Below are positions 3,407 through 49,854 of a stretch of 64,000 nucleotides of DNA, piece by piece. The notes under the pieces were generated by a model. That model had not been told where the DNA came from, did not search any database, and saw only the letters and a program-made list of their open reading frames with translations. Where the stretch lies: NCBI RefSeq assembly GCF_020085105.1, contig NC_058062.1, forward strand, positions 4,118,945-4,182,944, written 5' to 3'. The stretch comes from Siniperca chuatsi. Lineage: Eukaryota > Chordata > Actinopteri > Centrarchiformes > Sinipercidae. Position numbers and translations under genes: made by a program. Each line of letters begins with the position of its first letter. Position 1 is the first letter of the stretch.

Positions 3407-3978
3407 GACGACAGATTGGCCAACTGCATTTATTAGTGTTTTCTGCTCGTGTGTTCAGTTTTTTCCAAACATGGGTCTGAAAGCATTTTGTGATGCATAA
3501 CAACAATTTACACATTAGGAGATACTGTATATGATTGATTGATTGCCCCAGACACACAAATCATCAAAAGGATAAAAACACAATAAAGTCCAAAGGCTTA
3601 TTTCCATTGTGGTCCTTTTTGGGGAGGTAGGGGGTAGGATCATCGTGAAAAGACAGCCAATTGGCTTCTAGCAGTCCTAAACATACATCATTTAATTTGA
3701 AAAGAAAGATCAATCACAGTAACAATGTATAACAAAATTAATCCATAAACATTCCAATATACAGTTACGATAAAATACCGCACTGGTCCCAAATTCCTCA
3801 ATTGAAAAAAATGCCTGGAACATCAATCTTATAAATGTTTCATCGCAGATCTTCCAATCACAATCTTCACGATACAGTGTATAATAAAATTAATGATGCA
3901 AGGCACAGTGCCAGTGCATTTTGGGGTTTTTAGCTTTAAAGGAATAAGAACATCTTATGATTGGTGTGGCTGCTCTGC

Positions 3979-6552
3979 TTATTCCCAGATGAACTTCAGA
4001 GACATATCACCGAGTCTCTCCTGAAGGAGTTGATCCACTCTTTCACTCTGCGCGGCAGTAAAGGTGTTCTTCCAGTCACCGATCTTACCTGTAATGAAAA
4101 AACAAAAACTGGACCTGATATCTGTTTACACGTTTCTGCACAGGAGCTGCAGTTATGATCCGTTACCTTTGCGCATGAAGTCTCCCCTCAGCTTCTCTTG
4201 TGGCAGAAACTCATAGTTGGCTTTTGAGTCTTTCTTCATGTTCTTAAATGTAGATTTTTCTACAACTTGCTCAATGGCTGCTTCACTCAGGTTTTTCCCT
4301 AAGAAAATGCAGATCTTAGTTACTGCCGCCTTCAGGTCCTAAAAGCAGAAGCAGAAGCCCAATAGAGAGCAAGTTTAAATGCTGACAAAGACTCTATTAT
4401 TCTTTTAATTCGAATTTTATTTTCAAATGAACATGGCTCTTTTTAATTCATAGTATTAAATGGATTTGTACACTCCAAGCTACACAACTACAGGAGGAAA
4501 AAAAACACATCTTACCAAAACCATGTCCTCATAGGTTAGGAAGAGGATGTTGTACTGGTCTCTCTTTGAATGCCACACCCTGATGTGGTCGAACCAGGAT
4601 GATGCTCCAACTGTATAATGGTATAATGTGTCCCTTAATTTAGTGTCCCAAAAGAATGCAAATCCAACCAACATGGTACAATAAAAGCCACTACTTTGGT
4701 CCAGACTGAAATATCTCAACATCATTGACTGGATTGCCATGAAATTTCGAAGCCATTCATGGTTCCCAGGGGATGAATCCTTTTGTGATCCCCTTTCCTT
4801 TGAAGTAGCGCCACCAGCAGGTTGACATTTGTGATTGTGTCAAATGTCTTGTCAACTGCTGGATTTCCGTGACATTTTTTGTTCACACATTCATGTCCCC
4901 CTCAGGATGAATTGTAGTAACTTTGATGATTCCTCTAGCGCCATCATCAGGTGAAATTTTCACTTTGTCCGATACTTTGTATTATGACCAAAATACCTGC
5001 AAAACTAATGACATTCAGCCTCAGCTATACTTTGTTAGTGTTAATTAGCAAATGTAAGGATGCTACATTACACTACCATGACGACGTGATCATTCAGCAG
5101 TGAAGGAACCAATACTTACCTGGAAGTGTCCTCGGCCAAAGATTTTAAAAGATTTAAAATTTTAAGTGTTGTCAATATTAAATTGTTGATGAAAATGTTC
5201 AAGATCAAGTGCTCTGTATCTGCAGGTACTGTCAACACAAACACACAATCCACACTTTTTTAACATAAAATTAAAAAATCTTTCTGTCAATTCCAAATAA
5301 TCAGATGGTTATCAATTAAAAATTATCAGCACTGGACTCATCATCCAACTCTGAGGTACCTCACCGTTGCCCATCAAAAACTCCTCAAAAAAGTGCTCAA
5401 AGCTCTTGGGAGTCTCCAGGTCGCCACAGACGCTACTGAAGTGGTAATAGGAGACGATGTTGTCCTTTGGATTACGCATCACATAGATAATCTGACATAA
5501 AAACAAACAACAATCAGCACAGAGATGAAACCAATACATACTATTTTCTCCTCCATGCCAAACTCCATTCAAATAATTCACTATTTAATGATAGCTTAAT
5601 TTGTATCTTGGGAACATACAAAAATTCCTCACAGGAAAAAAAAAAGATTGCTAAATCACAAATTTTAACCTTGTATCTCATAATTACAGCTGAAACAATT
5701 AGTCAATCATTGAATAGTTGATCGACAGAAAAAATGTATCTGCAACTATTTTGATAATTAATGGCCTAAGTATAAAACAAATTGTCAGAAATGCCAATCA
5801 TAGTGATCATTCCAGCTTCTCTAATTACATTATAGTAAATTAAATATCTTTGGGTTTTGGACTGTTGGTTGAACAAAAAATGCAATTTTACGATGTTCTG
5901 GGAAATGATTGTGGGCTTTTCTGACACTGACACCAAACGGTTAATACCTTAATCGATAAAATAATCGGCGGATTAATTTGTTGAAACCCTTCTCATAATT
6001 GTAGTTTACCACAATATATTTATATGTTTTTTCAGATTATAATATATTTTTAAACTTTTATTTGCCTGGCAGGATTGGACTTCCATAAAATACTGACCTT
6101 TGCCTTCTTGTCCTTTAGTCCCGGAGGCATGAGAGCCGGGGTGAGGTGAGAGGCGAAGAGCCGTGGAGAGGGTCGTAGGGCGTAATCTTCTCGACCCTCC
6201 CTGTACTCCAGCCATGGCATCTGCTCCAAGTTGTTTGGATATTCATTCAGACCCCCGTCTAACTCACAGATGGAGATGATGATCTGCTGAGTCCATATAG
6301 TGCCTGTGGGGGGAATTATGAGACATCATACCTGATCAGTAAATCTGTTGCCAGCCAGGACAAAACTGTAAATGCAAATAATGTGATACAGGAGAGTTTG
6401 TCACACTGACCTGACTTTGGATAAGTGACGAGGAATATGTCGCTATCTCGAATTTCAAAGCTTTGGAGTGAATCAATGTACTCTGCAGTTGTGTAACCGA
6501 TGGCAAAGTTGTAGTTTTTATACCTGCAGAGAAAGTCGGTGATCTGCTCCAT
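3979..6552 (-). CDS. Cytosolic sulfotransferase (amine-sulfotransferase-like)
   Basis: Transfers sulfonate from PAPS to hydroxyl or amine groups of small molecules in the cytosol (SULT family). Six coding exons on the minus strand: 6552-6411, 6303-6098, 5491-5365, 4610-4516, 4338-4167, 4088-3979. Phases agree throughout and give 283 residues, normal for the family. Key sites: PAPS loop TYPKSGTIW (about 43-51, Lys46), catalytic His100 in ASHL, PAPS-binding RNPKDNIVS (122-130), and C-terminal [13 protein letters not shown] (246 on). The dimer motif reads [10 protein letters not shown], with Ala where the motif usually has Val. The 127- and 95-base exons have classic SULT sizes; the 206-base exon seems to merge two usual exons. 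Start ATG at 6552 opens a typical SULT N-terminus. The subfamily (SULT3 or another fish SULT) cannot be fixed here. Confidence 0.92.
4650..5060. repeat. Teleost interspersed repeat in sulfotransferase intron
   Basis: Phrases such as catggttcccaggggatgaa and gcgccaccagcaggt recur at 7085-7440, 20640-21260 and, on the other strand, at 56305-56665 and 62758-62990. It is a high-copy fish repeat containing an internal roughly 90-base periodic unit. This segment lies in the part deleted from the pseudogene copy at 19.6 kb. Confidence 0.65.
5680..5985. repeat. Teleost 'TAATCGATTA' interspersed repeat
   Basis: Begins with gctgaaacaattagtcaatc and ends with aaaataatcggcggattaat. The middle contains tctttgggttttggactgtt. 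Further pieces of this family lie at 55045-55235, 56070-56265, 60095-60260, 61200-61385 and 62200-62345. Non-coding; it lies in the intron between sulfotransferase exons 2 and 3. Confidence 0.65.
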
Positions 6553-8324
6553 ATTACTTATGAATCACACAGAAAAATGTTTGCATAAGAGACCAGAGAA
6601 GAACGGAAAAACCTCACAGGTACAGTAGCTGGACTCTGGACTTGTGCGTGTTATTGGCTGCTGGCTTATATGTGAAATACTGACAGCTGGGTACACACTG
6701 CCACCAACAGGAAGCTTGAAATATAGTGATTGTATATATAGAATATAGTGATTTACAGGCATACTATCTATTGGAACCTGTCACTTTTCTATTATTATAT
6801 TATGTATTTATAAATCAGACCCAACTCAGAATAGTTGAGTTTGTGCTGAAAAAAGGATACCATGCATGCGGGGTATGGACAGTTTAAACAGTTAAAACAA
6901 AGACAAATATGAATGTATAGAAAGTCTGCTACAATGAACCAAAATTAACCTGGACTCCAGAGGGTTAAAGGGAGGGACAATAAATAATTATTACTTTAAT
7001 ATTTAAAGTACTTTCAGCTTACTTGAGTGTTATCTTACTTTATTTCAATTGTTATTAAACTTTTTAAAATCTACCTTTTCCAATCTTCTCAATTTTTGCC
7101 TCATTTTTAGCCACACTAGCAGCATTAAATTCTGTACAGATATTCATGGTCCCCAGAGGATAAAACCTACTAACTTTGGTGACCCGTGACCTCTCCTGTA
7201 GCGCCACCAGCAGGATTTTAGAGAAATGTCTTGCCAAATATTGGATGGTTTCTGTGAAATATGGTACAGACACTCATGGTCCCCAGAGGATGAATTCTTA
7301 TGACTTTGTTGATCCCCTGACTGTTCCTGTTGCCCCACCAGCAGGTCAAAGTTTTCACTTATTCTGTGAAATATCTCAACATCTGCTTGATGGATTGGCA
7401 CAACATTTTATACGGACATCCATGATTCCCTGGTGATGAATCCTGCTGGCAATCATCTTGATGAAGATTCCCATTATCCCTCCCCTACTTTTAACTTATA
7501 AAGCACCTAATCCAAAGATAGAGGCTTTAAAACAATAAAAGAATCATGAACACACCACATTGTACATGAGAGGTTACTGTTTATTACTGTAAATGCTAAT
7601 GTATGTGCACAGAGTTTACATTTATTTGGATTTATTTACTGTAATATAGCTCTTTCATGAAGTCAGGAATACAGAAGAGAGCTAAGTACATGTTGAAACT
7701 GGTGTTAGAGATAGATTACCTTGTAAAATTAAGCATTGCAACAATAAGACATTTCAAAGATAAGCAAAACAGGTAAACCATAGCTTTTTAATAACTGATC
7801 CAATTTATCACATTCTGTAAAGCAAAAAATAATAATAATTCAAATCCAACAATGGTATAATTTGACTTCAGTGATGATAAAAGCATAATTGATAATCTAA
7901 TCTAAAATATCTTCAGCTAATCAGTAAATGTTAGTTTACGGTAAGTGAACTACATTAAGCAGCTACAACTCTAAGGTTAACAACCAACATAATTTTATTT
8001 TCACATACAATGATTATTAGTTAAAGCATTTATTACTAAATGTCATATGCATAAGTACTCAAGTAATCTTCATAGCTGCAAAAACTACAGTATATAAACT
8101 TTGACAAGGAACAAAAGACATGGCTATATAATCATTAAAAAATTGGACAGAGTTAAATGGTTTACGTCCTAAGAATCGCAGCTATTTAAGGATTAAGGAT
8201 ACCCTGGAATGATTGAGGATGATCAGTGATTTTGTGCCGTATGCAGGATTCTTTTATAAAAATGGATTTACAAAAAGGCACACTGTGAGTGTTGCCACAT
8301 GCAGTACTGTCTGTTTACTGAGCA
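6553..8324. other. Spacer between sulfotransferase and apoL copy A, with repeat
   Basis: This holds the sulfotransferase upstream region and the apoL A 3' flank. It matches 20320-22261 closely from about 6769 on, as part of the duplicated block. Bases 7085-7440 are the reverse-orientation teleost repeat (ccccagaggatgaattc, gccccaccagcaggtc). A minus-strand AATAAA (TTTATT near 7580) could end an apoL A transcript with a 3' UTR of about 740 bases. No further gene is seen. Confidence 0.5.
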
Positions 8325-11300
8325 CTATTGTGTGTTTTTCTTTTGTTTTTCATCCACTTCATCAGATGGAAATTCTTCTGTTTCTCTTTGTTTCCTCAGC
8401 TCACTCTCCAGATAAAATGGCGTCTCCAGGATAGCTCGGTTCTTCTCTGATGTCAGCAGGCCTTCACACAGGGAGTCATGGATCTTCTGCCATGAGTCCA
8501 TCTCTGAGCGCCACAGTGCAGATCTGGCTCTGATGAACTGTGAGACTTCAGTCTCGCTGCCTTTGGCCAGACTGATGCTGTCTTTACAGATGAAGAAGAT
8601 ATCCATGCCAACGAAAAGAGCATTGACTGCGATGAGACCGGCCCTGGCTGACTTGGAGAGGGCAAGAGACCCTTTGACTGCTGCCTGACCAATATCTGGG
8701 ATATCTGAGGCCACCCTGGGCACGTTACATAATGCTTTTCCTTCCTGGGCCACCACCTTGCCAGCACTTGTAATAAGCTCTTTACTTTTCAACAACTTAA
8801 CAGCAGAGGCAGCATCAACAAGCGAATCAATGCCTTTCAGGACAACACCAGCTTTACAAAGCACCTTGCCTACTCCCACAGCCACACCTATCCGGCTTGT
8901 TTCCTGTTTGGCTATTTGATTGGTCACCTCCTCCAGATAATCCTGGAGACTCTGCACATCCTCCATGAAGCTCTGGAAGACTTCACTGGCTTTCTTTTGA
9001 TGTTTACAGTTTACTCCGATCTCTGTGGCTGTGGTGACAACACTGTTGACTCCGCTGGTAATTCCCATCCCTACCCCGGTCATTGTCAGCGCTAGAGACA
9101 CCCCTGCTGTTACAGGAATTAATGCCAAACCAATGATGGAAAGCACACCTCCAATCGCCCCCACTGAGCTGCCTGCCACACTGGAGATCTTTGCCCCCTT
9201 ATTCATCCTGTCTAGCTGAACAGCACTCTCCTCCAGGTCTTTTAGAAACTCCAGCATCCTGGGCTGTCGCTCGCTGAACTCACTGATGAAGCCAGAACAT
9301 GATTCCTCCGGAAACAAGAATACCGTCCGGAAATGCTGGTTCATCCTGATAAAGAGGAAAGACAACATTAAAGCTCAATAATCAATATTTTTTTATCTTT
9401 GGCCCATAGACTTTGTATTGGGATGATGTCACACACTTTACAATCACTTTTCTGGGCTCTGGGAAAGTTTTACAAATATAAAACCAAAGAGTTGTAATTG
9501 ACTTTGCAGTTCAAAGTGTCCTGTCAACAGTTTTACAGACGTCTCTTTTATAATGGTGGTCTATGGGGAAAAAAATTTCTGGGCTGAGTGGATTATTTTG
9601 ATGCAATACTGTGAGTGGTCACTAGGACAAATTGGCAGCAAAGCTGAGCGGCAGCACCGTGTCAATGGATGTATTCTTAGAACTGGATCCCGGACCCAAA
9701 GATGGTGCCTATTCAGTCCAATGAGAATTGCTCATCTGTTGCATATGCCAAGAAAAGTTTATATCTTCTGGGTTTACTTCCGGAGGGATTCGGCCCATAG
9801 ACTTTACATTGTAATGATGTCATGGATTTTTAAATCACTTTTCTCGGCTTGAAGAAATATAAAACCTACATGGATCAAAAATTCATGATAGAAAGAGTCA
9901 TAATTGACCTGGTTTGCAGTTCGAGCTGTCCTGTCAACAGTTTTACAGACGTCTCTTTTATAATGGTGGCCTATGGGGAAAATGCTTTTTGGCCATGCTG
10001 TATCCAGGTCTTATTATACATCCATGGCCGTATCCCACAAGTATATGCCTTTATATCAAAGTCTTCTTCTTCACTGCCTGTAAATGGGGGCATTGCTACA
10101 TTTCTTGGCACATTACCGTCATCAAACGTCGATCAGTGGAATAGCGTGAAACCAACAGGCAGGATGTGAATTGCGCTGCTTGCTTGCAAATGCATGTGTC
10201 CTTGTGAGCATGCATGATACAAACAAAACAAGGGCTCACTTATAAAAATCTTGCTCTGTAGCAGTACTTGTGGTCAAAAACTCCACAAAGTATCTTTAAA
10301 AACACAAGTTTTGTAATAATTTTGAATAAAAACAAACTTATTATATTATAGTATTTTTAGATTTGATGAAACTATCTGTTAATGAAAACAGTTATCAAAG
10401 AATATATATATACAGTATATATATATATATAATATTAAAGAAAGTTTGTGCAGTGATCCACCACCTTCATTCTTTAACTTTGTATTTCAGACTAATTGAT
10501 CCAATTCAAGTAGTTTTGAACCATCTGCCCAGATGTTTGAAATTTAATTGATCAACTCTTCGTAGCATTCATATTTTTCACATGTGTCTTTATGTATAAG
10601 TATTTGTATGTACTTAATAATCTCCATGATGTTTTTAGAATATTTTTTCATTCACTTTTCAGATTGAAGTATGTGAAATTTTTCTTGTCATAAAGAACAG
10701 CTCATATGTAAAGCCAACTACTTTTTCTTCAAGATGAAAAAATAGCTCATCTGTGCCAAATAATTATTATTCATTTTTAACCTTTCATTTATTTTTATTT
10801 ATTCGTTCTATTGTCTTTGATTGTATGTTCCTTGTCTTCTACTCACTCTTGTACTGTATTTCTTGTTTGTATCATCTTGTCTGCTTGATGTTAATGATTA
10901 CACTTAATTGTATTTGAGATTTATTTCCTTCACATTGGGGAAGACTTTATATGAGCCTCCCTAGGCTTCCTTTCTCCTCTACACATATACATACATACAA
11001 ACAAACAAAAACAGTCAACATTATTCATAGGGACTATTTAAGTTTAGTGTACGTTTATTTCATTTATATAGCACAATAGGTTTTGGTGCAAAGTGCTTCA
11101 CAAAGATAAATATATATGTATACACATACAGGCATACAATCCTATATGTGATAAACAGATGTTGTGGAAAGATAAAGCAAGATTAAAATGGGAAGAAGTT
11201 AAACACAAATTTTAAGACCCAAGGAATCAGATAAAAAATATTTCTTGTATAGAAAGTACAGTTCCAATGAAAACTGTGACGTTTGTGGATTATCCAGAGT

Positions 11301-14300
11301 AACCAGGATATTGTTCTGCCACTGAACTGTGTTGACATGATATTATAACATTTGGCCCCAAACAAACCATACATGTGTAATGCTTACCTGATTTCATCGA
11401 GCTGATTAATGTGATGAAGCATCCTTTGTACATCATCTTCGGAGAAATCCACATCGAGGTTTACCAGAGTTTCTTTGTTCATCTTCAGGCTGAAGTCACT
11501 GAAGGAGCTGTGAAAGACACAGACACTTACTTCCTGAAATAGATTTTTATTTTGAAAAATGTGCAAATTTGTTATGAAGAAGTGTCAGTTTACCTTTTCT
11601 CTAACTTCTCACAGATTTTCTGGGTGGTCTGAATGTATTTGTCCAGCTGATATGACAGCACTTCCACATTCTGAAGTTTGGGAAGGAAGAAGACACTTGC
11701 ATCTCTTCTAAACTCGAGGAGGAATGGGCAGATCAGCCGTGCAGCGGTGATGACAACCTGAACATGTTCAAGGCTGATCCCTTTGGGCAGACGTAACACC
11801 TGGTTCTCCTCCATGAACACATGAAGTGAGGTGACCGCCAGCTTCTCCACTGCATCCAGGAAGTACTCGAGCGTCTCCAGGCCTCCCAGAGTGTCCTTCA
11901 GCACAGCAGCCAGCTTCTTCTCCAGCTCTGCATGCCTGCTGCCTGCAGTCATCTGGGTTGCCCTGTCCTTCATATATTTCCACATAGTATTACCTTTGCT
12001 CTTTGCCTTTTTAGCATGGTTGGTTTTGTCAGCTCTGTCTTTGATGTCATTTATCACGAGTAACTCTGTCTCCCTCCCAAGCATCCATGCAGAGTGCTCC
12101 TTAATGAATCCTCTCACTGTGTCAATGTGGCTGAGGGTATCTGCGGTGTAGCAGCACAAGGCCTCCTGTAGTTCCTTTCTGTAAGACAAAACATCATCCA
12201 GTTTGTAGATTAATCAATTCAGTTCAATTCAATTTAAAGGGGCTTTATTGACATAGGAAACAGACATTTACATTGCCAAAGGAGGTGTGAAATAACAACA
12301 ACAAAAAATAAATAAATGTACATAAACAGAAGGATTTTGCTGTTATAAATATATATATATATGCAGATAAGGAAAATAACTTAAAATAGAAAAAAATGTA
12401 GACTGTGTGAGAACTATATAAACACTGCAACATTTTTTAATGAATGTGTGTTTGTGTGTGTGTGTGTGCGGGTATTACTAATGTTATGGGGACATAAATC
12501 TGTTTACACAGTCACATTGTGGGGACTTGCCTTCCTTATGGGGACAAAATGCAAGTTGCCATAACATATCATTGAATTTTAGGGTGAAGACTTTAAGGTT
12601 AGGGTTAGGTTTAGGCAAGTAGTGGTTAGGGTTAGGGTTACGTCTACAGGGAATGAATTTAAGTCAATGTAATGTCCCAGAAAGTGATGGAAACATGACT
12701 GTCTGTGTGTGTGTGTAGGTCATTCACTGTCCCTCAGCTTGTGGCATGTTGATACATACTAGGCAGCAGGATATGCCCTGTCTCCTTCTCCTAGGAGTAT
12801 TTTTAATGTTGAGAGCTCATTTAGCTCTTTGAAACTACAGAGTCAAACTTGTTAAGGTAATTGTTCCTTATTTCATTGAATGTTTTACATGGTAGGAGGA
12901 ACCAAGCGGCAACCCCCGGGGCTGAAAGATGAAGCCAACTCGAAAGGGCCAAATACTGCAGTTCATCAAATGGCCACTTGAGGCTGGCTCCAAAAGCGAG
13001 TCAATGCCCATAGAGCCCCGTGTTAAAATGTCCAACTTTACAGCAGAAATAAACATGTTTACAGCCTGGTACAAAAAACGGTTTTGATCTCTGTAGCTAA
13101 TTTCCCCGTTCATGACAACTGTGAGGGGGGTGAATTTTTTTATAACTCACCCGTTTAAATTATATTAAGGCTTAAATTAAAGTTCTACATAATTAAGGAC
13201 GTCGGCTTTGGCGGCTTTGAGTGACAGGTGGGTGCCCTCTCAGGTGGCTAGCTGCTAGGTGGTTTGGCTACCAGGCTTCATTCAGCTCCAACTCTTTGCC
13301 CATTTTTGGATTAGCCGGAGTCAGGGACTGCCAAGATGGCGACGGCCGGAGCTCTTCAGAAACCTATGGGTGACGTCACGGACACTACGTCCATGTTTTA
13401 TACATTACACATGGGAAGAAGTGCATCTCTGTCTCAACCTCACATGTCGACCACATATTCTATTTTTTTTTGATTGCCAAGATTTTTTGTGTCTTCCTTT
13501 TTCGATTTTCAGTTTGTGGTCCCTGAGTCTGTACTTGGTCAGGATCTGTCTCTGCTTTCTATCTCTGACAGCAGAGAGATATTCTGCCAATTCATCATCT
13601 CTTTTTAGGGCCAGATAACATTCTCATCTACTTTGGCTTTTAGTTTCTTCTTTCCAATGGTACAAATAGGTTTCTTTACATTGTGTTATAAGTTGGTTTA
13701 CTCTGATTGGTGTTTGGAAAGCAGCGTTGTTGTGAGACTGGTCAGAGTGTGTCTGAGGGGGGGCAGTTAGTCTCAGCACCAACTGACATAGGGGTCTTTT
13801 CTGGGCTCAGCTCTTGGGTTTGGAACGGAGAGTGTCTACATGCATTTGTTGGTGTTTTTCTGTGTAAAGGTAAAATGTATCTGCAGAATTCTGCATGTAA
13901 AGATTCTGTTGGATGTTTGATCCAACTGGTATAACTATGATGACTGAGTGGACCTCATATGTCGCTACCATACAGCGCCGATACATGGGGTGCGCACGCC
14001 ACCAGGCGAGCCACCAGGCGAGCCATCAGGCGAGCCACCGGGGCGCCCCAACTCTATCAAATATTTTAAACCATATTTTAATTGGAATTTGGAAATCATA
14101 AAATTTTCTCTTAATTGCTTTTAGATCTCTTTGAGCTTTTTCTTTTAGTGCATTCACTGCCATGTTGAAACTCCCTGATGCTGTTATGGTTATACCAAGG
14201 TCAGTATAACTCATACTGTGTTCAATGATATGATTATTAATGGTAAACTGGTATTTGTTCTCCTGACATCTGGGGCGTTTTTGAAAAATCATGACATTAG

Positions 14301-15551: not shown

Positions 15552-15990
15552 GTTACTGTCATCAGTTTCATATGTCACGTTTTGGAGGGCAGAAAGAAAC
15601 TCTTACTTGTGTGCATCACAACTAACCACACCCGTTTCCAGTAAGTGATTTGGATATACACATCTTTGAATGCGCCACAGCACACGAGCACTTGAAATGA
15701 GTGCCGGTTTTGCACATTTTGGTGTCCTATACAGGCCAGATGTTCACTGCCGCTCCAGAGGGGACTGATCTGTTCATTATAATATTTTATAACAATCATA
15801 GTACTTTTATAATCTTCTGTCATTTACAATTTAACTTCATTCAGCTGTCCTCATCTTTTCTGCCTCATGTCATCAACATCTGTCATGAACAATAGGGCAC
15901 TCAGGATATGATTATGGGTCTGTATGTTTTGATAGTTTGTTTAGTGGATTAAATCCAAAGTGGAAGAAACGAGAAAAAGAAAGAATTCTC
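15552..15990. promoter_or_regulatory. Presumed apoL A promoter region
   Basis: Bases upstream of the minus-strand ATG at 15551. On the minus strand a TGTATATCC near 15655 could act as a TATA-like element. No other motif is convincing. The start of transcription was not determined. The block homologous to the copy D flank begins further up, at about 16000. Confidence 0.25.
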
Positions 15991-16369
15991 CTCATTTTGT
16001 TTAGCTATATGTACAAAACCAAAATAGACAGTGGCAGAAACAAACTTAATTGGCTATTCCACCTGTGGGCGGGCTTACTCCTGTTACTCCGCTCTGGCAA
16101 TTGTTTTCGCTGTGCCGCCTTCAAAGTATGAGTTCCCTACTCTCCTCTTTCTGTCCAGTCAGATGTATTTAAGTATTTTTTAAATAATCTTAATTCATTA
16201 CATAGTATTTTTTCATTATTATTTTTTATCTATCTGTCTCTCTAAGATATAAATATCTATCCTATAGATTGACAGAAAAAAAATGTTTTGATTGTGCAAT
16301 AAAAATGTGCAGATTGAAAAACGCATATGAATAATGCAAACATGCAGAATGTATTTTGCTATGATTTTT

Positions 16370-24882: not shown

Positions 24883-26196
24883 CTATAAGACAAAACATCA
24901 TCCAGTTTGTGAGATTTCAAAACAAGTTCAAACAATCCACTGAACTGCTGCTGTGGAGTCTCACATTACAAGACCTAATGTATCTGCACCCTAGGTTTGT
25001 TCTGTGACAGCCGTTGCTGATAAATATAACCGGGCACCCTGACCCCCTTGGACCCGGGGCCAGAGCCTCTGTTTGAAGTAGGGATGTCCTGATTGTGTTT
25101 TATACCCCTAAACCTTATCAGAGTCTCTTAATACTGAGCATCAGCCAACCAAATGCAACCCAGTATTTGTTCTCTGTGTGGTTTTCTTTCATATTACAGC
25201 TGCACAGCCTACTGAAGCTACAGTAACATTTCAATAAAATACAGTAACATTAGTAAAGTCATTTAAAACAGCAGAACAGCTCTGCTTTAAGAAAATATAA
25301 TATGCATCTCAGGTTTTTTATGGTTAAGTATTACAATAGTACAATATCTGTGCAGAGGAGTGTCACTGAAAGAGTCACGAAACGACTACAAAGAGACGTG
25401 AAAAGACAAAAATCAACAACAAAGACACAAAACCGATGAATAAAGTATCTATCTATCTAAAGAACACAATACAGTATCTAAGGTAAATTAATTGTCACAC
25501 TAACTGTATTTATAAACAAATTATAAATGAATGATTAAAATATAACCACAAGGCCACCTATGTATATGAAGGCCTATATGGTCTACATACATCAGTAGTT
25601 CCCAAGATAAATCTGAGGGATTGTGAGATGATCAACAGGATGGAAGAGCAGTAAAAATACTTTGTCAAATTAAATGTATTTCTTCAGATGTTCCTCTAAT
25701 CTTTGCTGTTTTACTTGTGAAATAATGGCTATAATATTAAATTATTATTATTTCATAATTCATACACGTTTTTAACTAGTGACATTGCTTTGTTTTAGGG
25801 GTCACAGGTCTAACAGGTTTGGAACAACTACATAATTCAGGGTGTATCGCTGTTTTGCTTTTTCTTTGCATTTACACAGTTTGACCAGCAGATGTCGCCA
25901 AAGCACACACAGTGTTTCACAGTGACAAAACTGATTGAAGCACTGGGTTTAATGAGTTAAGGTTTCAGAAAACTTAATTTTAACTTTAACGTTTACTTTT
26001 TTATTTTTCAGGGACAATGCACATTGATCAAAAGGCTAATTTTCAACTGTAGTCTCTTGGCTTGATGTTATCCCCTTCAAATGCCGTCGGAAATGTAAAG
26101 ATACACGTTAATTGATCTTGTTCAGCGATATGTACAAAACCACAATAGACAGTGGCAGAAACAAACTTAACTGGTTATAACACCTGTGGGCGGGCT
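24883..26196. other. Upstream region of apoL B to the L2 insertion
   Basis: Bases about 25457-25580 match 34497-34620 upstream of copy D, and 25872-25945 match 35951-36010. Bases 24915-25456 have no match in D. Bases 26122-26196 match 16001-16075 in the copy C flank. No exon 1 candidate for copy B was seen. Confidence 0.5.
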
Positions 26197-26799
26197 GTGT
26201 CGGCATTTCTGTGTACCCGCCAGAAGCTTCGTCTTAAACCACCAGAAACTGACATTTTATTGAGTTTTCTACGCTACACTGTTTTCCTGGCTATTGTTTT
26301 ACCGATATGTTTTAACTTGGTAAAAGTTGTCAGTCATTGGACATATGGATCTTAAGTGATTTTAAGCTGACTGTCAACTCGATGTGGTTTACCGGACTGC
26401 CTCCACTGCTGCCGGTCGCTTTTATTTAGGATTTTAAGCATTTAGCACTTTTATGGACTTTACTGTGGATTTTAAGCTTTGAAACACTCGCACGGACTAA
26501 CTGCAAGCCTGATGGCTGAGTGTGGATCTTGTCACCTTACTGTCTCAAAGCTGAAGAAAAGTATCGCATGTCTGGCAGCCGAGCTCAGAGAAAGAGTTCT
26601 CCACTGTCGTCTCGGCCCAGGCAAAACACCTTGCAGTCCTCAGCTCCTCTGGCTGCGGCAGCCGGACTGCGACCATCCCATCTCGCTCCACTGACTGCTC
26701 CACTCCAGCACTGGACAATGATCCCGCTCTTCCATGGCTCGGCTCCATCATCACTGGCGCCCTGGAGCAGGAAGCCGTTTCAGTTAAGCCTGAAGATCC

Positions 26800-27300
26800 G
26801 TGGCTCCTCATAGGTACAAAGCCCAAAGCAATGGAAATTTCTACTCCTTGCCGAGCCCCAGTGGATGCACGGTCACTGTGGGCGGGGGTGGTGAGAAGGC
26901 TCAGGTGAGTTCGATTCCACGTCAACCGGAGCGCTGGACTGTAGCCTGTAAGGACAGATATGGTGCAAAGCGCCCGACTCCTCCACCTTCACATCGGGAC
27001 CTCCTGCTGGCCAACAGGTTTGACATCCTGGATATGCAGGACTTTCCTCCACTGGAGGGTCGCTCCCTTTTTCCAGCGGTCAAGTCTTCCTCCTCCTCTC
27101 GCCGCAAGTTACTGAAAGAGGTCGTGATCAGGAGAAGCTCTGGAGGTCTCATTCGTCCTGAGACGGCAGAGAACCCCTCTGCTAAGAAGGACGCCGCCCC
27201 CTCGCCCCCGCCCCCAGCAGTCCCCGGCCTCTCTAACAAAATGATTATTTTAAATGATTTTATCTCATCTACTGATTTAGATTTCATGTTTTTAACTTAA
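26800..27300 (+). pseudogene. L2-like LINE ORF1 remnant
   Basis: A 166-codon open frame rich in Pro, Ser, Arg and Lys, with HRDLLLANRFDILDMQDFPP. It resembles the low-complexity, basic ORF1 proteins of fish L2-type LINEs, which bind element RNA. The 5' part (a Cys-containing frame from about 26515) is in another frame. Confidence 0.55.
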
Positions 27301-28598
27301 TCCTGGTTAAGTCCTGGAGATCACAGTCAGCTGGCTGAATTGTGCCCTCCAGATTATGACTGCTTTAGCCGCCCTAGGGACAGTGGTCGTGGTTGTGGTC
27401 TTCTTACTGTCTATAGGAAGCATTTAAAGTGTGACCTCATAGCTTGCAAAGATTTTTCCTCCTTTGAAGTGCTCATGTTTAAACTAGGTGGCCCCCTCCC
27501 GGTCATATTTTCGATCCCCTAAACCAGCTGGCTCCTTCTTGTTGGAACTCCCTGAGTTTTTATCCAGTCTTGTTTTAAATGACGTAAGAATTGTTCTTTG
27601 TGGTGATTTTAATATTCATGTTGATGACTATTGCTAATGCTCTTACTGCTGATTTTTTAAATATCACTAACTCTTTTAACTTTCAACAACAAGTGTCTGG
27701 CCAAACTCATTCCCGTGGCCACACCTTAGACCTAGTCTTTAGTCTGGGCCTGAAAACTCCATCTGTGGGACATGTTTGTATCCAATCACCTATGCATTGT
27801 TTTTAACTGTGAATTACAGGCTGCAAGTACTGTCCTATCCCGCTCTGAGTACATGCGCGTCCTTAATAAGCATAGTGCCTTAAAATTCTGTACACTGTTC
27901 AATTCTTCTGGCAAAGTGTTTCCCAATTCCTCCAACACCAACGATTTGGTTGATTCTTTTAACTACCTGTGTTCTTTATCCTTAGATCTCATAGCTCCTC
28001 TGAAAAATAGACCAAACTCAAAGACTAGAAAACAGCCATGGTTAAATGACAGTATTCAAAGCTGTAAAAGGAAATGCAGAAGAGCAGAACACAGATGGAA
28101 GAAATCAGGTCTCCAGGTCCACTTTGTGGCCATGAAAGAGTTATTACGCCTTTATAACAGGATGATGAAGGATGCAAGAACATATCATTTCTCTGCACTT
28201 ATTTCTGCCCATCAGCACAGATTCCTATTTAGGACTGTGGATCAGTTAGTTAACCCTGCCTCTCTTTGTGCCCCTGCTGATTGTGATGCTGATTGTGAAA
28301 AGCTTCTCTTTTTTTTTCTCTTCTCATAAGAGACATCATGTCTCTTGTGAGAGTGACCCCCAGCCCTATGGACAAAAGTTCTTATTGGAAGTTATGGGTT
28401 GTATTGCGCCCCTTTTGCTAATTATTTTTAACAGCTCACTGTCTACTGGCTGCGTCCCAGATTACTTTAAAACAGCTTGTGTCCAGCCAGTCCTAAAAAA
28501 ACGGGGCTTGATCCTGGATAACTAACGTCCAATCTCTAAACTGCCTTTTTATTTCAAAGATTCTAGAAAAACTTGTATCCAAGCAGCTTCTTGCTGCT

Positions 28599-29916
28599 GT
28601 GGAAAACAATAATACCTTTGAAAAGTTCCAATCTGGCTTTCGTCAACACCACAGCACTGAGACAGCTCTTCTCAAAGTCACTAATGACCTTTTAATGAAT
28701 GAAGACACAGGCATGTGTTCAATTTTTGTGCTGTTGGACTTAAGTGCTGCCTTTGATACAATTGATCATGGCATTCTTTTAGATAGACTGAGGCACTGGG
28801 TGGGCAGATCTGGCACTGCACTAGACTGGTTCTCATCTTATCTGTCCAATAGGAAATTCTGTGTCAGCATTAATAACTTCATGTCATCCTTCTCCCATAT
28901 CAAGTATGGTGTGCCTCAAGGTTAAATTCTGGGACCAATGCTGTTCTCCTTATACATGCTTCCCTTGGTTGATGTCATCCGCAGACATGGGATTTCTTTT
29001 CATTGTTATGCGGATGACACACAGTTGTACCTCCCTGTCAAGCCCACTGACTTTAGTACGCTGAGTTCTCTGCAGGACTCTCACAAAAAACTGGATGTCG
29101 ATACATTTTCTTCAGCTCAACTCAAATAAAACTGAAATCCTTGTTATTGGGCCCCAACACATCACTAAACACATACTGCCATCTACTGGCTACCTGTCAC
29201 AAGAGATCAAGCCTGTTGCAAGAAATCTTGGTGTCCTGTTTGATAGCAATTTATGTTTTGAGCAACATATCACTAAGCTTGTCCAATCATGTTTTTATCA
29301 CCTCAGAAATATTGCAAAAATCTGATCTATTTTAAATCTTAGTGATGCAGAAACTGTTGTGCATGCTTTTATCTCCTCACGCCTCGATTATTGTAACAGC
29401 CTGTTCACTTGTCTTAATCAAAAAACTCTGACACGACTGCAGACTGTACAAAACTCAGCTGCTAGGCTGTTAACCAGGACCGAGAGGTTCGATCATATCA
29501 CACACATTTTAACCTCTTTACATTGGCTCCCTGTTTGTTTTAGGATTGATTTTAAGATCTTGTTGATTACCTTTAAGGCTCTGCATGGCCTGGCTCCATA
29601 CTATATTTTCGACCTTGTAATCCCTCATGAACCTTCACGTAGTTTGAGATATTCTGGCAGGGGTCTTCTATCTGTTCCAGAGTCCAGGATGAAAACTAAG
29701 GGGGGCAGAGCTTTTGCCATCAGGGCCCCGAGGCTCTGGAACAACCTGCCCGAAGAAATGAGGTTGTCTGAGTCAGTGTCTTCTTTTAAATCTCTTCTCA
29801 AAACGCATTTTTATCGGAAAGCATATCCTGATTTTACCTCAGCTGTCTGTTTATTTTATTGTTTTTATGTATTTTATTTATTTTATATTTTATCATTCAG
29901 ACATTGTGATTTGTAG
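28599..29916 (+). pseudogene. L2-like LINE ORF2 reverse transcriptase and C-terminal remnant
   Basis: Reverse-transcriptase blocks are read in three successive frames. The catalytic YADD box is kept ([11 protein letters not shown], about 29005-29037), but a stop follows GVPQG at about 28923, and frame changes occur near 29100 and a stop near 29323. It cannot make a full-length enzyme. Confidence 0.8.
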
Positions 29917-30612
29917 TGAGAGCAGGGAGCAGGTGGAGGAAAATCTAGAGAGATGGAGGTCTGCTCTGGAAAACAGAGGAATGAAGCTTAGCTGCAGTAA
30001 GACAGAATACATGTGTCAATGAGAGGGACCCAGGTGAAACGGTGAGGTTACAGGGAGCAGAGGTGAAGAAGGTGCAGGACTTTAAGTACTTAGGGTCAAC
30101 GGTTCAGAGCAATGGAGACTGTGGAAACAAGGTGAAGAGGCGAGTGCAAGCAGGTTGGAATGGGTGGAGAAAAGTGTCAGGTGTGTTGTGTGATAAAAGA
30201 GTATCAGCAAGAATGAAAGGAAAGGTGTTCAAGACGGTGGTGCTGGAGGTAGCAGAGCTTAAGATGTTGAGGTTCTCTTTGGGAGTGACGAGGACGGACA
30301 GGATCAGGAATGAGGACATCAGAGGGACAGCTCATGTTAGATGTTTCGGAGATAAAGTCAGAGAGGCCAGATCGAGGTGGTTTGGACATGTTCAGAGGAG
30401 AGACTGTGAATATATTGGTAGAAGGATGCTGAGGTTGGAGCTGCCAGGCAGGAGGTCTAGAGGAAGACCAAAGAGGAGATTTATGGATGTAGTGAGAGAG
30501 GACATGAAGTTAATTGGTGTGAGTGAAGAGGATGCAGAGGACAGGGTTAGATGGAGGCACATGATTCGCTGTGGCGACCCCTGAATGGAACAGCCAAAAG
30601 GAAAAAAAGAAG
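29900..30612 (+). mobile_element. Truncated RTE-like LINE nested in the L2
   Basis: A 5'-truncated non-LTR element. The frame at 30042-30584 encodes the ORF2 end (VQDFKYLGSTVQSNGDCGNK, KMLRFSLGVTRTDRIRNEDI, WFGHVQRRDCEYIGRRMLRL, RWRHMIRCGDP), then ggaacagccaaaaggaaaaa as the 3' tail. The pattern is that of RTE-clade elements of fish. The 16-base tatattttatcattca is present intact on both sides (29884-29899 and 30613-30628), a perfect target-site duplication, which places this insertion after the L2. Confidence 0.92.
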
Positions 30613-30713
30613 TATATTTTATCATTCACTGTGGTATTTTATTTTTCTCTTTGTGAAGCACTTTGTACTTTATTTTGATAAGTGCTCTATAAATAAAGTT
30701 TTATTATTATTAT

Positions 30714-31823
30714 TACTCCTGTTACTCCACTCTGCAATTGTTTTCGCTGTGCCGCCTACAAAGTATGAGTTCCCTACTTTCCTCTTTTTGTCTAGTCAGA
30801 TGTGTCTAAGTATTTTTTAAATAATCTTAATTCATTACATAGAATTCTTTTCATTGTCCAATCCTGTTTTTTTTATCTATCTCTCTTAGATAGATATAAA
30901 TATCTATCCTATAGATTGACAGAAAAAAAAACCATTTTATTTGATTGTGCAAGAAAAATGTGCAGATTGAATAATGCATACGAATAATGCAAACATGCAG
31001 AATGTATTTTGCTATGATTTTTTTCCTTTTTCAATTGCCAGTTTGTGGTCCCTGACTCTGTACTTGGTCAGGATCTGTCTCTGCTTTCTATCTCTGACAG
31101 CAGAGAGATATTCTGCCAATTCATCATCTCTTTTTAGGGCCAGATAACATTCAGATCTACTTTGGCTTTTAGTTTCTTCTTTCCAATGGTACAAAGAGGT
31201 TTCTTTATATTGCCTTATAATTCGGTTTACTCTGATTGGTGTTTGGAATTCTAACAATTACTTCCTAGGCTGCTGCACACACACTTTTTTAACTAAGACA
31301 AAGGAAACACCAGGCAAATTCTGTTGAAGCTTTTTATTTGCAAGATTGTGCAAGAAAAATTTGCAGATTGAATAATACATATGAATAATGCAGAACATAC
31401 AGAATTAATTTTGAATAATATTTTGCTCTGATGATATTTTTATATGACAGTGATTGCAACTCTATAATTAACAGTTATTTTTCATTACATTTATTCGTTA
31501 CATTTATTATCAGGTAAAGTATGTAATACTAAATGACACCTATAATGCATTATGTTTTAAAACAGGCTTAGCAAAAGGTTGATAAATTCAGCCGTAAAAA
31601 CAACAAGTAAAAAAGCTGAGTCAATAAATTGGTTTATGTTGTGAGAATTACAGCTAATTAAGAATTCCTCAATGATACATTTTAATGATGTTCGGTGCTG
31701 AACAGTGAGCTGTAAGCAGAGTTAAATTTTCATACGTGCTTCGATCGCATTAAATGGATCTCATATCTGATCATAGTGTCAGACTTGGCAAAAAGGCACA
31801 CAGTAATCTCTGTTCACTGAGCA
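30714..31823. other. 3' flank of apoL copy D (matches copy C flank)
   Basis: About 95% like 16076-17184. Bases 31020-31260 hold the LINE 3'-end peptide on the minus strand (KRDDELAEYLSAVRDRKQR, open here over 81 codons). No other gene is seen. Confidence 0.7.
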
Positions 31824-34467
31824 CTACTGTATTACACAAAACTGTTTTTCTTTCAGTTTTTCATCCACTTCATCAGATGGAATTTCCATTTCTGTTTCTC
31901 TTTGTTTCTTCAGCTCACTCTCCAGATAAAATGGCATCTCCAGGATAGCTCGGTTCTTCTCTGATGTCAGCAGGCCTTCACACAGGGAGTCATGGATCTT
32001 CTGCCATGAGTCCATCTCTGAGCGCCACAGTGCAGATCTGGCTCTGATGAACTGTGAGACTTCAGTCTTCCTGCCTTTGGCCAGACTGATGCTGTCTTTA
32101 CAGATGAAGAAGATATCCATGCCAATGAAAAGAGCATTGACTGCGATGAGACCGGCCCTGGCTGACTTGGAGAGGGCAAGAGGCCCTTTGACTGCTGCCT
32201 GACCAATATCTGGGATATCTGAGGCCAACCTGGGCACGTTACGTAATGCTTGTCCTTCCTGGGCCACCACCTTTCCAGCACTTGTAATAAGCTCTTCACT
32301 TTTCAACAACTTAACAGCAGAGGCAGCATCAACAAGCGAATCAATGCCTTTTCCGACAAGACCAGCTTTACAAAGCACCTTGCCTACTCCCACAGCCACA
32401 CCCATCTGGCTTATTTCCTGTTTGATCACCTCCTCCAGACAATCCTGGAGAATCTGCACATCCTCCATGAAGCTCTGGAAGACTTCACTGGCTTTCTTTT
32501 TATGTTTGCGGTTTACTCCGATCTCTGTGGCTGTGGTGACAGCACTGTTGACTCCGCTGGTAATTCCCAGCCCTACCCCGGTCATTGTCAGCGCTAGAGA
32601 CACCCCTGCTGTTACAGGAATTAATGCCAAACCAATGATGGAAAGCACACCTCCAATCGCCCCCACTGAGCTGCCTGCCACACTGGAGATCTTTGCCCCC
32701 TTATTCATCCTGTCTAGCTGAACAGCACTCTCCTCCAGGTCTTTTAGAAACTCCAGCATCCTGGGCTGTCGCTTGCTGAACTCACTGATGAAGCCAGAAC
32801 ATGATTCCTCCTGAAACAAGAACACCGTCCGGAAGTGCTGGTTCATCCTGATAAAGAGGAAAGAGGAAATCACAAAGCTGATCATGTTATTTCAAAATTC
32901 TGTTTGGGATTTGGGATCTGCGTTATTTTTTCCAATTTATTTCATGAGATAAATTTCAAATTATACAGAGGTCCTAATTCCTGCTGGACAAGACCACCCC
33001 TAATTTCCTTTAGTTGAAGTAAATTATATTTAAACAAGACCGAGAGTCTACAGCCATGCTAGCTGCTCTGTGAGGCTGTGCTTAGCCACAGTGGTGCTTG
33101 AGCTACATGCTAATGCCAGCATGCTAACATGCTGATGTTTAAAAAAGTTTTCTAAGTTACTTTTTTTTTCATCTGTGAAAACAGGTGAAAACTAAAGTTT
33201 TGGAAGGTGAACTTTTTTTGGAAGTGTTTGTTTGTTGTAATAGTCATTTTGGCCACAAGACGCTGAAGTGCACCACTACCCCATGTTCTAAATAGGACTA
33301 AAAGCATTCATGTTTTCTTCCAGATGAGTTTTAATTTCTCCATGCACTCTATCAAGTAGTTGCTGAGATATTCTGACAGACTGTCAATGCCATCCATATA
33401 GCCATGCTGCTAGCATTGCTAATAAAAACAAATCTGAGACTGAATTGCAGCGTTGCTCGAACTGTGGCCTTCATACAGAGTAGAAATGTAAACAAGTAAG
33501 AAAGAAATAATTTTGTACTGCATGTCTCTATTTTCTTGCAGTGTGTATCAAACAGTCTTTTGAACATCAGTCATGCTGATTAGATTTACATTACTGTAAC
33601 TAATAACACCTTGCACACCTCAACATGATATTTGGGGCAAAAAACATACAAGGGGCAATGCTTACCTGATTTCATCGAGCTGATTAATGTGATGAAGCAT
33701 CCTCTCTATGTCATGTTCAGAGAAATCCACACCGAGGTTTACCGCAGTTTCAATAGTCATCTTCAGGCTGAAGTCACTGAAGGAGCTGTTAAAGAAAGAA
33801 AGTTCAATTCATTTTAATGTTGTTTATTTTGCAAAATGTGCATATTTGTTATGAAGAAGTGTCAGTTTACCTTTTCTCTAACTTCTCACAGATTTTCTGG
33901 GTGGTCTGAATGTATTTGTCCAGCTGATATGACAGCACTTCCACATTCTGAAGTTTGGGAAGGAAGAAGACACTTGCATCTCTTCTAAACTCGAGGAGGA
34001 GTGGGCAGATCAGCCGTGCAGCGGTGATGACAACCTGAACATGTTCAAGGCTGATCCCTTTGGGCAGACGTAACACCTGGTTCTCCTCCATGAACACATG
34101 AAGTGAGGTGACCGCCAGCTTCTCCACTGCATCCAGGAAGTACTCGAGCGTCTCCAGCCCTCCCAGAGTGTCCTTCAGCACAGCAGCCAGCTCGTCCTCC
34201 AGCTCTGCACGCCTGCTGCCTGCAGTCACCTGGGTCGACTTGCTCTTCATATATTCCAGAAAGGCCTTTCCTTTGTTCTCTGACTGGGAGACATGGCTGA
34301 TATTCAGGTTGATTTTGTCAACCCTGTCCTTGATGTCCATTATCATGTGTAACTCTGTCTCCCTCCCAAGCATCCATTTAGATTTTCTCTCACAGAATCC
34401 TCTCACTGTGTCAATGTGGCTGAGGGTATCTGCGGTGTAGCAGCACAAGGCCTCCTGTAGTTCCTTT
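31824..34467 (-). CDS. Apolipoprotein-L-like copy D (5' exon not found)
   Basis: Exons 34467-33871, 33785-33666 and 32847-31824, with the same phases as copy A and standard CAG acceptors. The first large exon shares a 4-codon-longer segment with copy B (NLNISHVSQSENKGKAFLEY). The membrane hairpin (GAIGGVLSIIGLALIPVTAG) and second hydrophobic segment are intact. The C-terminus ends EKQFCVIQ, as in copy C. A few residues are missing after CLEEV compared with A and B. All three exons are open. No copy of the 20-base exon 1 lies upstream; homology to the other copies ends near 34497 and a Tc1 element lies at 34623. It may be expressed from a new first exon or be non-functional. Confidence 0.82.
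32862..33660. other. apoL D intron between last two exons
   Basis: Matches the copy B intron but carries about 300 extra bases (about 33333-33640) with no reading frame worth calling. The 5' part contains the teleost repeat cagccatgctagctgctctg. Confidence 0.5.
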
Positions 34468-34622
34468 CTGTAAGACAAAACATCATCCAGTTTGTGAGAA
34501 CACAATACAGTATCTAAGGAAATGTAATTGTCACACTTACTGTATTTATAAACAAATTATAAATTACAAATTATTAATTAATTAATAAATTAATGATTAA
34601 AATATAACCACAAGGCCACCTA

Positions 34623-35943
34623 CAGTGCATCCGGAAAGTATTCACAGCGCTTTACTTTTTCCACATTTTGTTATGTTACAGCCTTAATCCAAAATGGATT
34701 AAATTCATTATTTTCCTCAAAATTCTACAAACAACACCCCATAATGACAACATGAAAGAAGTTTGTTTGAAATCTTTGCAAAATAATTAAAAATAAAAAA
34801 CAAAAAAAATCACATGTACATAAGTATTCACAGCCTTTGCTCAATACTTTGTTGAAGCACCTTTGGCACCAATTACAGCCTCAAGTCTTTTTGAGTATGA
34901 TGCTACAAGCTTAGCAAACCTATTTTTGGGCAGGTTCTGCCATTCTTCTTTGCAGGACCTCTCAAGCTGCAACAGGTTGGATGGAGAGCGTCAGTGCACA
35001 GCCATTTTCAGATCGCTCCAGAGATGTTCAATCGGGTTCAAGTCTGGGCTCTGGCTGGGCCACTCGGACATTCACAGAGGTGTCCCGTAGCCACTCCTTT
35101 GTTATCTTGGCTGTGTGCTTAGGGTCGTCGTCCTGTTGGAAGATGAACCTTCGCCCCAGTCTGAGGTCCAGAGCGCTCTGGAGCAGGTTTTCATGAAGGA
35201 CGTCTCTATTCATTGCTGCCTTCATCTTTCCCTCAATCCTGACCGGTCTCCCAGTTCCTGCCGCTGAAAAACACCCCCACAGCGTGATGCTGCCACCACC
35301 ATGCTTCACTGTAGGGATGCTATTGGCCAGGTGATGACTCCAGACAGGACGCTTGCCATTCAGGCCAAAGAGTTCAATTTTTGTTTCATCAGACCAGAGA
35401 ATTTTGTTTCTAATGGTCTGAGAGTCCTTCAGGTGCCTTTTGGCAAACTCCAGGCGGGCCGTCATGTGCCTTTAACCGAGGAGTGGCTTCCATCTGGCCA
35501 CTCCACCATACAGGCCTGATTGGTGGAGTGCTGCAGAGATGGTTGTTCTTCTGGAAGGTTCTTCTCTCTCCACAGAGAAAAGTTGGAGCTCTGTCAGAGT
35601 GACCATCGGATTCTTGGTCACCTCCCTGACTAAGGCCCTTCTCCCCCAATCGCTCAGTTTCCCGGGCGGCCTGGTTTAGGAAGAGTCCTGGTGGTTCCAA
35701 ACTGAGCTCAATTTTGAGTGTCATGGCAAAGGCTGTGAATACTTATGTACATGTGATTTGTTTCGTTTTATATTTTTAATAAATTTGCAAAGATTTCAAA
35801 CAAACTTCTTTCACGTTGTCATTATGGGGTGTTGTTTGTAGAATTTTGAGGAAAATTTTTAATGTAATCCATTTTGGAATAAGGCTGTAACATAACAAAA
35901 TGTGGTAAAAGTGAAGCGCTGTGAATACTTTCCAGATGCACTG
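34623..35943 (-). mobile_element. Tc1/mariner transposon, inactive
   Basis: A 1321-base element between TA dinucleotides (34621-34622 and 35944-35945). Ends cagtgcatccggaaagtatt and, inverted, cagtgcatctggaaagtatt. The inverted arms run over about 200 bases each (34623-34835 and 35735-35943), as in Tc1 elements with long IR/DR ends. The minus-strand transposase is split: frame 35724-35410, then 35465-35028 with [11 protein letters not shown] (first Asp), [17 protein letters not shown] and [12 protein letters not shown] (second Asp). The segment carrying the third acidic residue is in a shifted frame. The enzyme is therefore broken. Confidence 0.95.
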
Positions 35944-37500
35944 TATGTATATGACCAGCAGATGTCGCCAAAGCAAACACAGTGTTTCACAGTGACAAAA
36001 CTGACTGAAGGACTTCCTGTAGCGCTCTGTGGTGTTTTTTAGGGGGATGAGTCGTTCGCCCCCCAAAATGAGCCATTAAAAGAACCATAAGACACACAAC
36101 ATTTAAAATTACAATAAAGAAAAAGCAAAACATGAAGCAGCTGAACAGGATAAAAAGCTTAGAGGAGTATGGCAGCATCATGCAAAGTAGGACATAAAAA
36201 GCAGGTAATTAATACAAAACAATGTTAAAGTTCAGTGCATGTTAAAACATGACAACATAAAATCACATTATATTACATTTTTGCCATCACTGGGCAATAT
36301 TCTACACACTTTGGGTACAATCATTTTCAGTATAAAGTATTTTAAACTGAGAAATGATTGCACAGTGATGATTCATACAATGTTTAACATAACAGAAGCT
36401 AAGAGGTGCTTATTTCTCTATCTGGTGCCTTTGTTTTTAAGACACAACATTCATTTCTACATTTATTTAATACTAAAAAACAATTTCATAAGGATCAGGT
36501 ATGTGAGTGTGCACTGAGGGTAAAAAAAACCTGTCAACTGTCAGATTTATTTAACATTTTCACAACATATTTAAGAAGTAATTAATTGTGTTGCTTAAAA
36601 TATTGTCCTTGTGTATTGGGGTTTCAGACATTCAGAGATCTGTCTGTATTTTACACTTTGTCGCTTTTCTCAGGTTTTCTGTGTAAAAGTAGTTCGAAGA
36701 TTCAAACTCTTTACCTGGCCGCAGACATGTTTCTCCTCTCGGTAACTTCAGTTCCTTATTGGGGCCTCAGCGTGTTACCTGCGTGGTTAAAGTAAAACAA
36801 TAGATTGGAAATCTGAGCGTTTGCTGTGCTAGAGATCAGTAACTCATTTGCTGACTGAAATAACAAAATCCCCGCTTGGTGGGCAATTTTGTAGACAAAA
36901 CTTCGACAGGCGATGTTCAGGTATGTTTGTTTTCGCTTTCTCTTTTCTCACCAGGCTGAACTCCACCCATTTCTGTACTTTACTCATTCTAGGCACTCAA
37001 GGGTTTTGTTTATTTAGCAGGCCGAAACTGTGCGTGGCAGCAATAATAAAAAGTCCAAGCAGCAATATATTTGCGACTGACAACGGCCTCTGTGTACTGG
37101 AGGGAGACATGCCGGTAATTAAACAAAAGAAGAAGAATGGCCAACAAAAAACGTTTGTGTTGTGAGCATGGATGGGTGTGAGAGGGCGCTGGACAACTGA
37201 AATGGAGGATGTCACACAAAGTCTGCGATTTTCCTGTCTCATTTTTTTTTGGCTTTTTCATCGCAAATTGCACTGCAGTACAAGCTGCTGGTTGCGTCCA
37301 TGTTTGTTTTGGTACAAGAACACGCGACAACTGGCGTGTTCTCGCGGGATTTGCGCCAGAACTCCAGTCGTTACTGACCAGTCATTCAGTGTCTAGTGTA
37401 TTTATGGTATTTACTCAGTGCAAGGTTAATGTTCCTGACTGTGATCTTTCTGTGTGGTTTGTCCAGTCTTTGTAGGTTTCAGCTAGTCTTCCCCAAGCTT
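35944..37500. other. Intergenic DNA beyond the apoL cluster
   Basis: Bases 35951-36010 match the copy B upstream region (ccagcagatgtcgccaaagc). The rest has scattered short frames with no family match and no clear repeat. I see nothing to annotate as a gene. Confidence 0.4.

Positions 37501-47460: not shown

Positions 47461-49854
<2,394 letters not shown>

Follow-up and report, generated by a model that had tools for sequence, protein, structure and literature searches.

Between eif3d and cacng2, in a 64-kb window of Siniperca chuatsi DNA (contig C21, 4118945-4182944, of a 719 Mb assembly in 65 contigs), lies a cluster of sulfotransferase (SULT) and apolipoprotein L (apoL) genes. We find that this locus is a well-preserved, ordinary tandem duplication, with exchange between the copies, of an immune-type gene family. 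The genes of the interval all lie on the minus strand and follow one another as SULT_A, apoL A, an apoL D fragment, SULT_B, apoL B, and apoL C. This inventory of one intact SULT, one SULT pseudogene, three multi-exon apoL genes, and one apoL fragment was named in the original prediction and is borne out by our gene models and Pfam searches (E, expectation value; ORF, open reading frame; LINE, long interspersed nuclear element):

3413..17805, minus strand: unit 1, comprising SULT_A, apoL A, and the apoL D fragment; colinear with unit 2
3979..6552, minus strand: SULT_A, intact, six coding exons; 5/5 introns GT-AG; coding sequence of 852 nt including the stop; best solved relative 7v1o
8325..12178, minus strand: apoL A; exon a 11594-12178, exon b 11388-11507, exon c 8325-9345; Pfam ApoL, E 2.5e-33
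17185..17805, minus strand: apoL D, a 3' fragment of exon c cut off at the unit junction; Pfam ApoL, E 7.7e-6
17806..18590, no strand: filler of 785 bases between the units; no self-match listed within 1-42000; repeat-like by eye
18591..36014, minus strand: unit 2, comprising SULT_B, apoL B, and apoL C and interrupted by a LINE and a Tc1-like element; from self-comparison
18591..20146, minus strand: SULT_B, pseudogene, without the segments bearing exons 1, 2, and 4
22262..24882, minus strand: apoL B, the mosaic; exon a 24286-24882, exon b 24085-24204, exon c 22262-23384; Pfam ApoL, E 5.2e-34
26197..30712 (approximate ends), plus strand: LINE in unit 2, ~4.5 kb; RVT_1, E 6.4e-14, on the ORF 28512-28925; delimited by empty-site comparison
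31824..34467, minus strand: apoL C; exon a 33871-34467, exon b 33666-33785, exon c 31824-32847; Pfam ApoL, E 1.8e-34
34618..35948, minus strand: transposon of Tc1-like type (label assigned by eye), lying upstream of apoL C; inverted repeat arms of 223 nt with 93% complementarity

We compared window positions 1-42000 with themselves. Among the colinear self-matches, 3413-9362 pairs in pieces with 18591-23401, and 16075-17805 pairs with 30713-32456; the homology has its edges where 3413 meets 18591 and 35952-36014 meets 25882-25944, in agreement with the extent of 3412..36010 that had been proposed. The head-to-tail blocks of that proposal stand as colinear direct repeats; the repeated structure, however, is more complex than a simple block: there are two units, each comprising a SULT and a pair of apoL genes (one of these now a fragment), and the second unit also holds the LINE. 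This layout fits a single unit [SULT - apoL-alpha - apoL-gamma] that would have been duplicated once to give SULT_A/A/D and SULT_B/B/C. In four segments from SULT and spacer, the units differ by substitutions at 1.5-2.8% of sites; the segments from SULT are partly coding. We excluded the self-match 7216-7407 versus 21042-21240 (18.5% substitutions) from the A-B divergence because it is a local repeat overlapping another match. Across the cluster, most homologous stretches differ by ~2-5% and some by ~20%. Each unit also has insertions of its own, namely the LINE, the Tc1-like element, and a 546-bp stretch in apoL B absent from apoL C; unit 1 runs uninterrupted near 16075, the empty site of the unit 2 LINE. 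With colinear direct repeats, low noncoding divergence, and later private insertions and deletions, the predicted duplication of SULT together with apoL is real, tandem, and fairly recent. The fragment apoL D breaks off within exon c at 17805, and the filler and then unit 2 come next; the fragment appears to mark the duplication breakpoint, which would fall within exon c. As for the insertions themselves, the LINE carries an ATT-rich tail, and the ORF at 35028-35471 in the Tc1-like element had no Pfam transposase match.

The three multi-exon apoL genes share one architecture. Exon a measures 585, 597, and 597 nt in A, B, and C (195-199 codons) and exon b 120 nt in each; exon a has an AG acceptor in 3/3 copies and a GT donor, and the splice sites of exons a-c are preserved throughout. 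Joined from exon a onward, the open codons number 574 in A, 612 in B, and 579 in C, and coding indels are multiples of three except in the last codons. Stops that were counted within the A and C matches to B arise where the B frame extends past the A and C stop codons, and one TGA in the A match sits upstream of the exon a acceptor. The Pfam ApoL model (PF05461) scores 116.2, 118.5, and 120.0 bits in A, B, and C and 26.0 bits in D, against a gathering cut-off of 25.9.

The sequence of apoL B is mosaic. It resembles C from the region preceding exon a as far as part of intron b-c, and it resembles A past the A stop codon. Over the span of exons a and b, B and C differ at 17/835 sites; they differ at 8/171 in the piece of intron b-c closer to exon b, and at 5/276 in the 3' part of that intron. 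Within exon c the three copies are about equidistant (A-B 38/1005, A-C 34/993, B-C 37/993). Past the A stop codon, B is identical to A (0/76 columns differ), while C is alignable in 15 columns with 7 differences. The A-B homology then continues through the spacer and SULT, and the 3' flank of C matches D.

A second sign of exchange lies in the uneven divergence of A from its counterparts. For exon a we compared codons 25-102 with codons 103-198, a split picked after inspecting windowed A/B/C differences. A and C differ at 46/222 sites in the first segment and 2/288 in the second (Fisher 5.8e-16), and A and B at 47/222 and 9/288 (Fisher 8e-11); intron a-b differs at 18/87 and 17/83 sites, respectively. 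In exon c, and in exon a over its 3' half, A and C are thus closely similar, amid segments ~20% diverged. Since synonymous divergence (dS) in exon c is 0.038-0.046, well below that of intron a-b, slow protein evolution does not explain why exon c is so alike. Gene conversion or unequal crossing-over would be the simplest account of the alike exon segments.

Taken together, we consider it likely that a segment holding [SULT - apoL-alpha - apoL-gamma] was duplicated in tandem and that its copies then decayed in part and exchanged sequence. The alpha and gamma apoL genes are older than the units, as the A-C differences in intron a-b show. The block would then have been copied in tandem with a breakpoint in exon c that left D behind; SULT_B has lost three exons and the units have gained separate insertions. 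Exchange between copies would have made apoL B a mosaic and kept exon c, as well as exon a in its 3' half, uniform.

Several observations weigh against parts of this account or of the gene models on which it is built. The flank shared by D and C differs by 3.4%, more than the SULT and spacer segments, which one duplication event does not predict. B and C align poorly between the two pieces of intron b-c that support the mosaic. A one-base indel near the C-terminus makes the B tail longer than that of A, and the C-terminal tails differ. A simple splice scan of ~1.3-1.8 kb upstream of A, B, and C, with the Tc1-like element skipped, turned up no ATG-bearing first coding exon. The apoL genes may therefore lack their 5' ends, and the next in-frame Met that is conserved is ~30 codons inside exon a. 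AlphaFold models have a mean predicted local distance difference test score (pLDDT) of 44.9 for exon a and 32.8 for exon c, too poor for a fold test. Finally, the correspondence of the two Asp residues of a conserved apoL motif, GMDIFFICKDS (D-x6-D), to D348 and E355 of human APOL1 is presumptive.

The original prediction had also read the expansion as a sign of recent selection, which our analysis does not support. Nei-Gojobori ratios of nonsynonymous to synonymous divergence (dN/dS) over the whole coding sequence are 1.06 for A-B, 1.06 for A-C, and 1.28 for B-C, and the nonsynonymous excess is not significant (Fisher p 0.45, 0.46, and 0.30). Under random substitution, the simulated chance of staying stop-free is 0.02, 0.03, and 0.10 for the three pairs, which are not independent, in a simulation that ignores indels and conversion. 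The open frames argue against plain neutrality. On balance, the apoL frames are maintained and the protein sequence varies freely, with positive selection possible but unproven.

A stronger form of this idea is an adaptive, diversifying expansion in which positive selection acts mainly on codons 25-102 of exon a and on the central part of exon c. The frames have stayed open despite 64-117 differences, and in two segments chosen post hoc dN exceeds dS: exon a codons 25-102 (0.254/0.200 for A-C, 0.258/0.214 for A-B) and exon c codons 361-480 (dN 0.055-0.069 versus dS 0.024-0.037). Two stickleback reports point the same way, one giving a higher APOL2 copy number in freshwater fish (PMC4159527) and the other placing two APOL genes in a region where balancing selection has been proposed (PMC2829049). 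Against this stand the nonsignificant whole-gene excess and the bootstrap support for pN>pS in codons 25-102 of exon a (0.71 for A-B and 0.75 for A-C; the 0.99 of B-C is based on 4 versus 0 changes), and conversion disturbs dN/dS. We hold selection-driven expansion to be possible, though less likely than not.

Alternatively, the array could be decaying, its apoL copies 5'-truncated or unexpressed and drifting neutrally. Ratios of dN/dS near 1, the failure of the splice scan to find an upstream first exon, and the already broken SULT_B and D would all suit such a state. Yet 574-612 codons remain stop-free in three copies, indels keep to multiples of three up to the final codons, the splice sites of exons a-c are preserved, and the simulated chance of such openness is small. 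Neutral decay of the apoL genes is thus unlikely in our judgment. A rather bolder variant of the exchange reading, to which we give still less credence, is a cassette-like diversification: the locus-private N-terminal module encoded by the first half of exon a would diverge freely while conversion keeps the ApoL channel exon uniform. If so, recombination in the array would yield new combinations of N-terminus and channel, of which apoL B would be one, against parasites or microbes.

Tandem similar blocks are typical sites of assembly error, and two haplotypes set in tandem could mimic a duplication. The window, however, has 0 N, private insertions and large deletions distinguish the units, and the divergence (1.5-2.8% in SULT and spacer, 3.4% in the D-C flank, ~20% in A-C intron a-b) is greater than ordinary fish heterozygosity, which lies below 1-2%; we regard an artefact as very improbable. 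A functional, co-regulated SULT-apoL pairing is the least probable explanation, for although the two were duplicated as a single block, linkage alone explains that block, SULT_B is dead while apoL B and C remain open, and no SULT match was found in the 50 kb around the apoL matches on contigs C13 and C22 (one C13 match being near the edge of the DNA covered, and the search taking in these two of the four contigs with further apoL matches).

SULT_A has its six coding exons at 6552-6411, 6303-6098, 5491-5365, 4610-4516, 4338-4167, and 4088-3979. In a comparison with solved structures, it gives a full-length match to the amine sulfotransferase 7v1o (E 8.2e-84; next 6e-62), which we take to be mouse SULT3A1. 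In all, 44 solved sulfotransferase-type sequences match it at E 1e-20 or better, and the Sulfotransfer_1 domain of Pfam is found in 2/2 SULT exon ORFs scanned. SULT_A also carries the motifs TYPKSGT and RKGxxGDW; its likeness to the putative SULT3 amine sulfotransferase 7v1o comprises the full-length match and both motifs. SULT_B retains counterparts of unit 1 positions 3413-4392 and 5341-5851 but has none of 4393-5340 and 5852-6768, which hold SULT_A exons 4, 2, and 1, and it is a pseudogene because the segments with these exons are lost. SULT_A is probably a cytosolic sulfotransferase and most simply a linked passenger, for which a functional tie to apoL is not needed.

The least ordinary part of the locus is the N-terminal apoL exon, which matches no known family significantly and may mark a fish apoL subtype. 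Pfam gave nothing above cut-off for exon a in 3/3 copies (all E 0.045 or worse), NCBIfam nothing above cut-off for exon a of B and C (one sub-threshold match for B, E 0.022; none for C), and a PDB sequence search with exon a of B no match. A protein search across the genome yielded three exon a matches, all in this cluster, from five candidates scored. Exon c has matches elsewhere in the genome at 27-40% identity (at least two on C13 and two on C22, with others on C8 and C3; all lower bounds). Exon a is predicted to be helical, at low confidence. For exon c of B, a PDB sequence search brought up no ApoL relative with an E of 1 or below; two PDB matches to thioredoxin reductase were judged to be chance. 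An NCBIfam match of exon c of C (31824-32891) to the bacterial pore-forming toxin MakA (E 0.0018; 17.3 bits against a cut-off of 320) was likewise not accepted as homology. A scan for interferon-response elements upstream of the apoL copies gave one site (~36.9 kb) versus 13 in the whole window and was uninformative.

As for function, the GMDIFFICKDS motif, a pore-lining Asp motif, is present in 4/4 apoL copies, and the hydrophobic insertion hairpin is free of acidic residues in the three copies that extend to it. According to PMC8358165, human APOL1-4 produce cation conductances, and both gating and selectivity depend critically on Asp 348 of APOL1, a residue conserved in APOL1-6; APOL3-5, whose residues at the APOL1 hairpin positions E201 and E209 are neutral, insert at neutral pH. 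The acid-free hairpin predicts APOL3-like insertion at neutral pH for the fish proteins as well. By this analogy, the apoL products are probably channel-type membrane proteins of innate immunity belonging to the ApoL family and similar to APOL3.

The cluster is bounded by two genes on the opposite strand:

1991..2275, plus strand: C-terminal exon of eif3d, left boundary gene; Pfam eIF-3_zeta, E 7.2e-31; PDB eIF3d, E 3.7e-37
49453..49740, plus strand: stretch containing the first coding exon of cacng2, right boundary gene; PDB TARP gamma-2, E 4.2e-29; Pfam PMP22_Claudin, E 9.1e-12, on an overlapping ORF

About 13 kb left of the window is an sstr3-like ORF of 511 codons whose best solved relative is somatostatin receptor 3, and farther out, left of it, a FAM83-type gene with a SACK1 domain; a cytohesin-like ORF was also noticed, by eye only. 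In human the gene order is APOL1-MYH9-TXN2-FOXRED2-EIF3D-CACNG2. Together, the sstr3-like and FAM83-type genes, eif3d, and cacng2 resemble the human 22q12-q13 block, in a different order. Since the sstr3-like gene fits this block, the position of apoL here need not be new. Beside the boundary genes, palindromes at 1068-1328 (near eif3d) and 37558-37946 (before cacng2) are hairpin-like and possibly miniature inverted-repeat transposable elements, and AT skew is strong (+0.269) at 46001-48000, directly upstream of cacng2 exon 1.

Several known systems resemble parts of this locus. The primate APOL1-4 cluster (22q12) shares tandemly multiplied ApoL-domain genes, the pore-lining Asp motif, and a similar neighborhood; the fish copies differ in having a 5' exon that matches no family significantly and in lying between eif3d and cacng2, joined to a SULT gene. 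The stickleback genes are likewise fish APOL genes but are placed on groupXI and LG III (PMC4159527, PMC2829049). Zebrafish apol1 belongs to the same family and is described in PMC4492502 as a single locus on chr2. For SULT, PMC3944005 gives 'cytosolic sulfotransferase 3' as duplicated in two cichlid species, a similar fish SULT duplication; a search of that paper's text did not find apoL. Among the literature matches listed, no title or abstract opening named the present locus, and none was found to join three of the four terms EIF3D, CACNG2, apolipoprotein L, and synteny.

Outside primates, the locus offers a clean case of how apoL genes arise, decay, and exchange sequence with their copies, and its surroundings recall the human APOL region. 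If its copy number varies among individuals, it would provide a parallel to stickleback APOL2.

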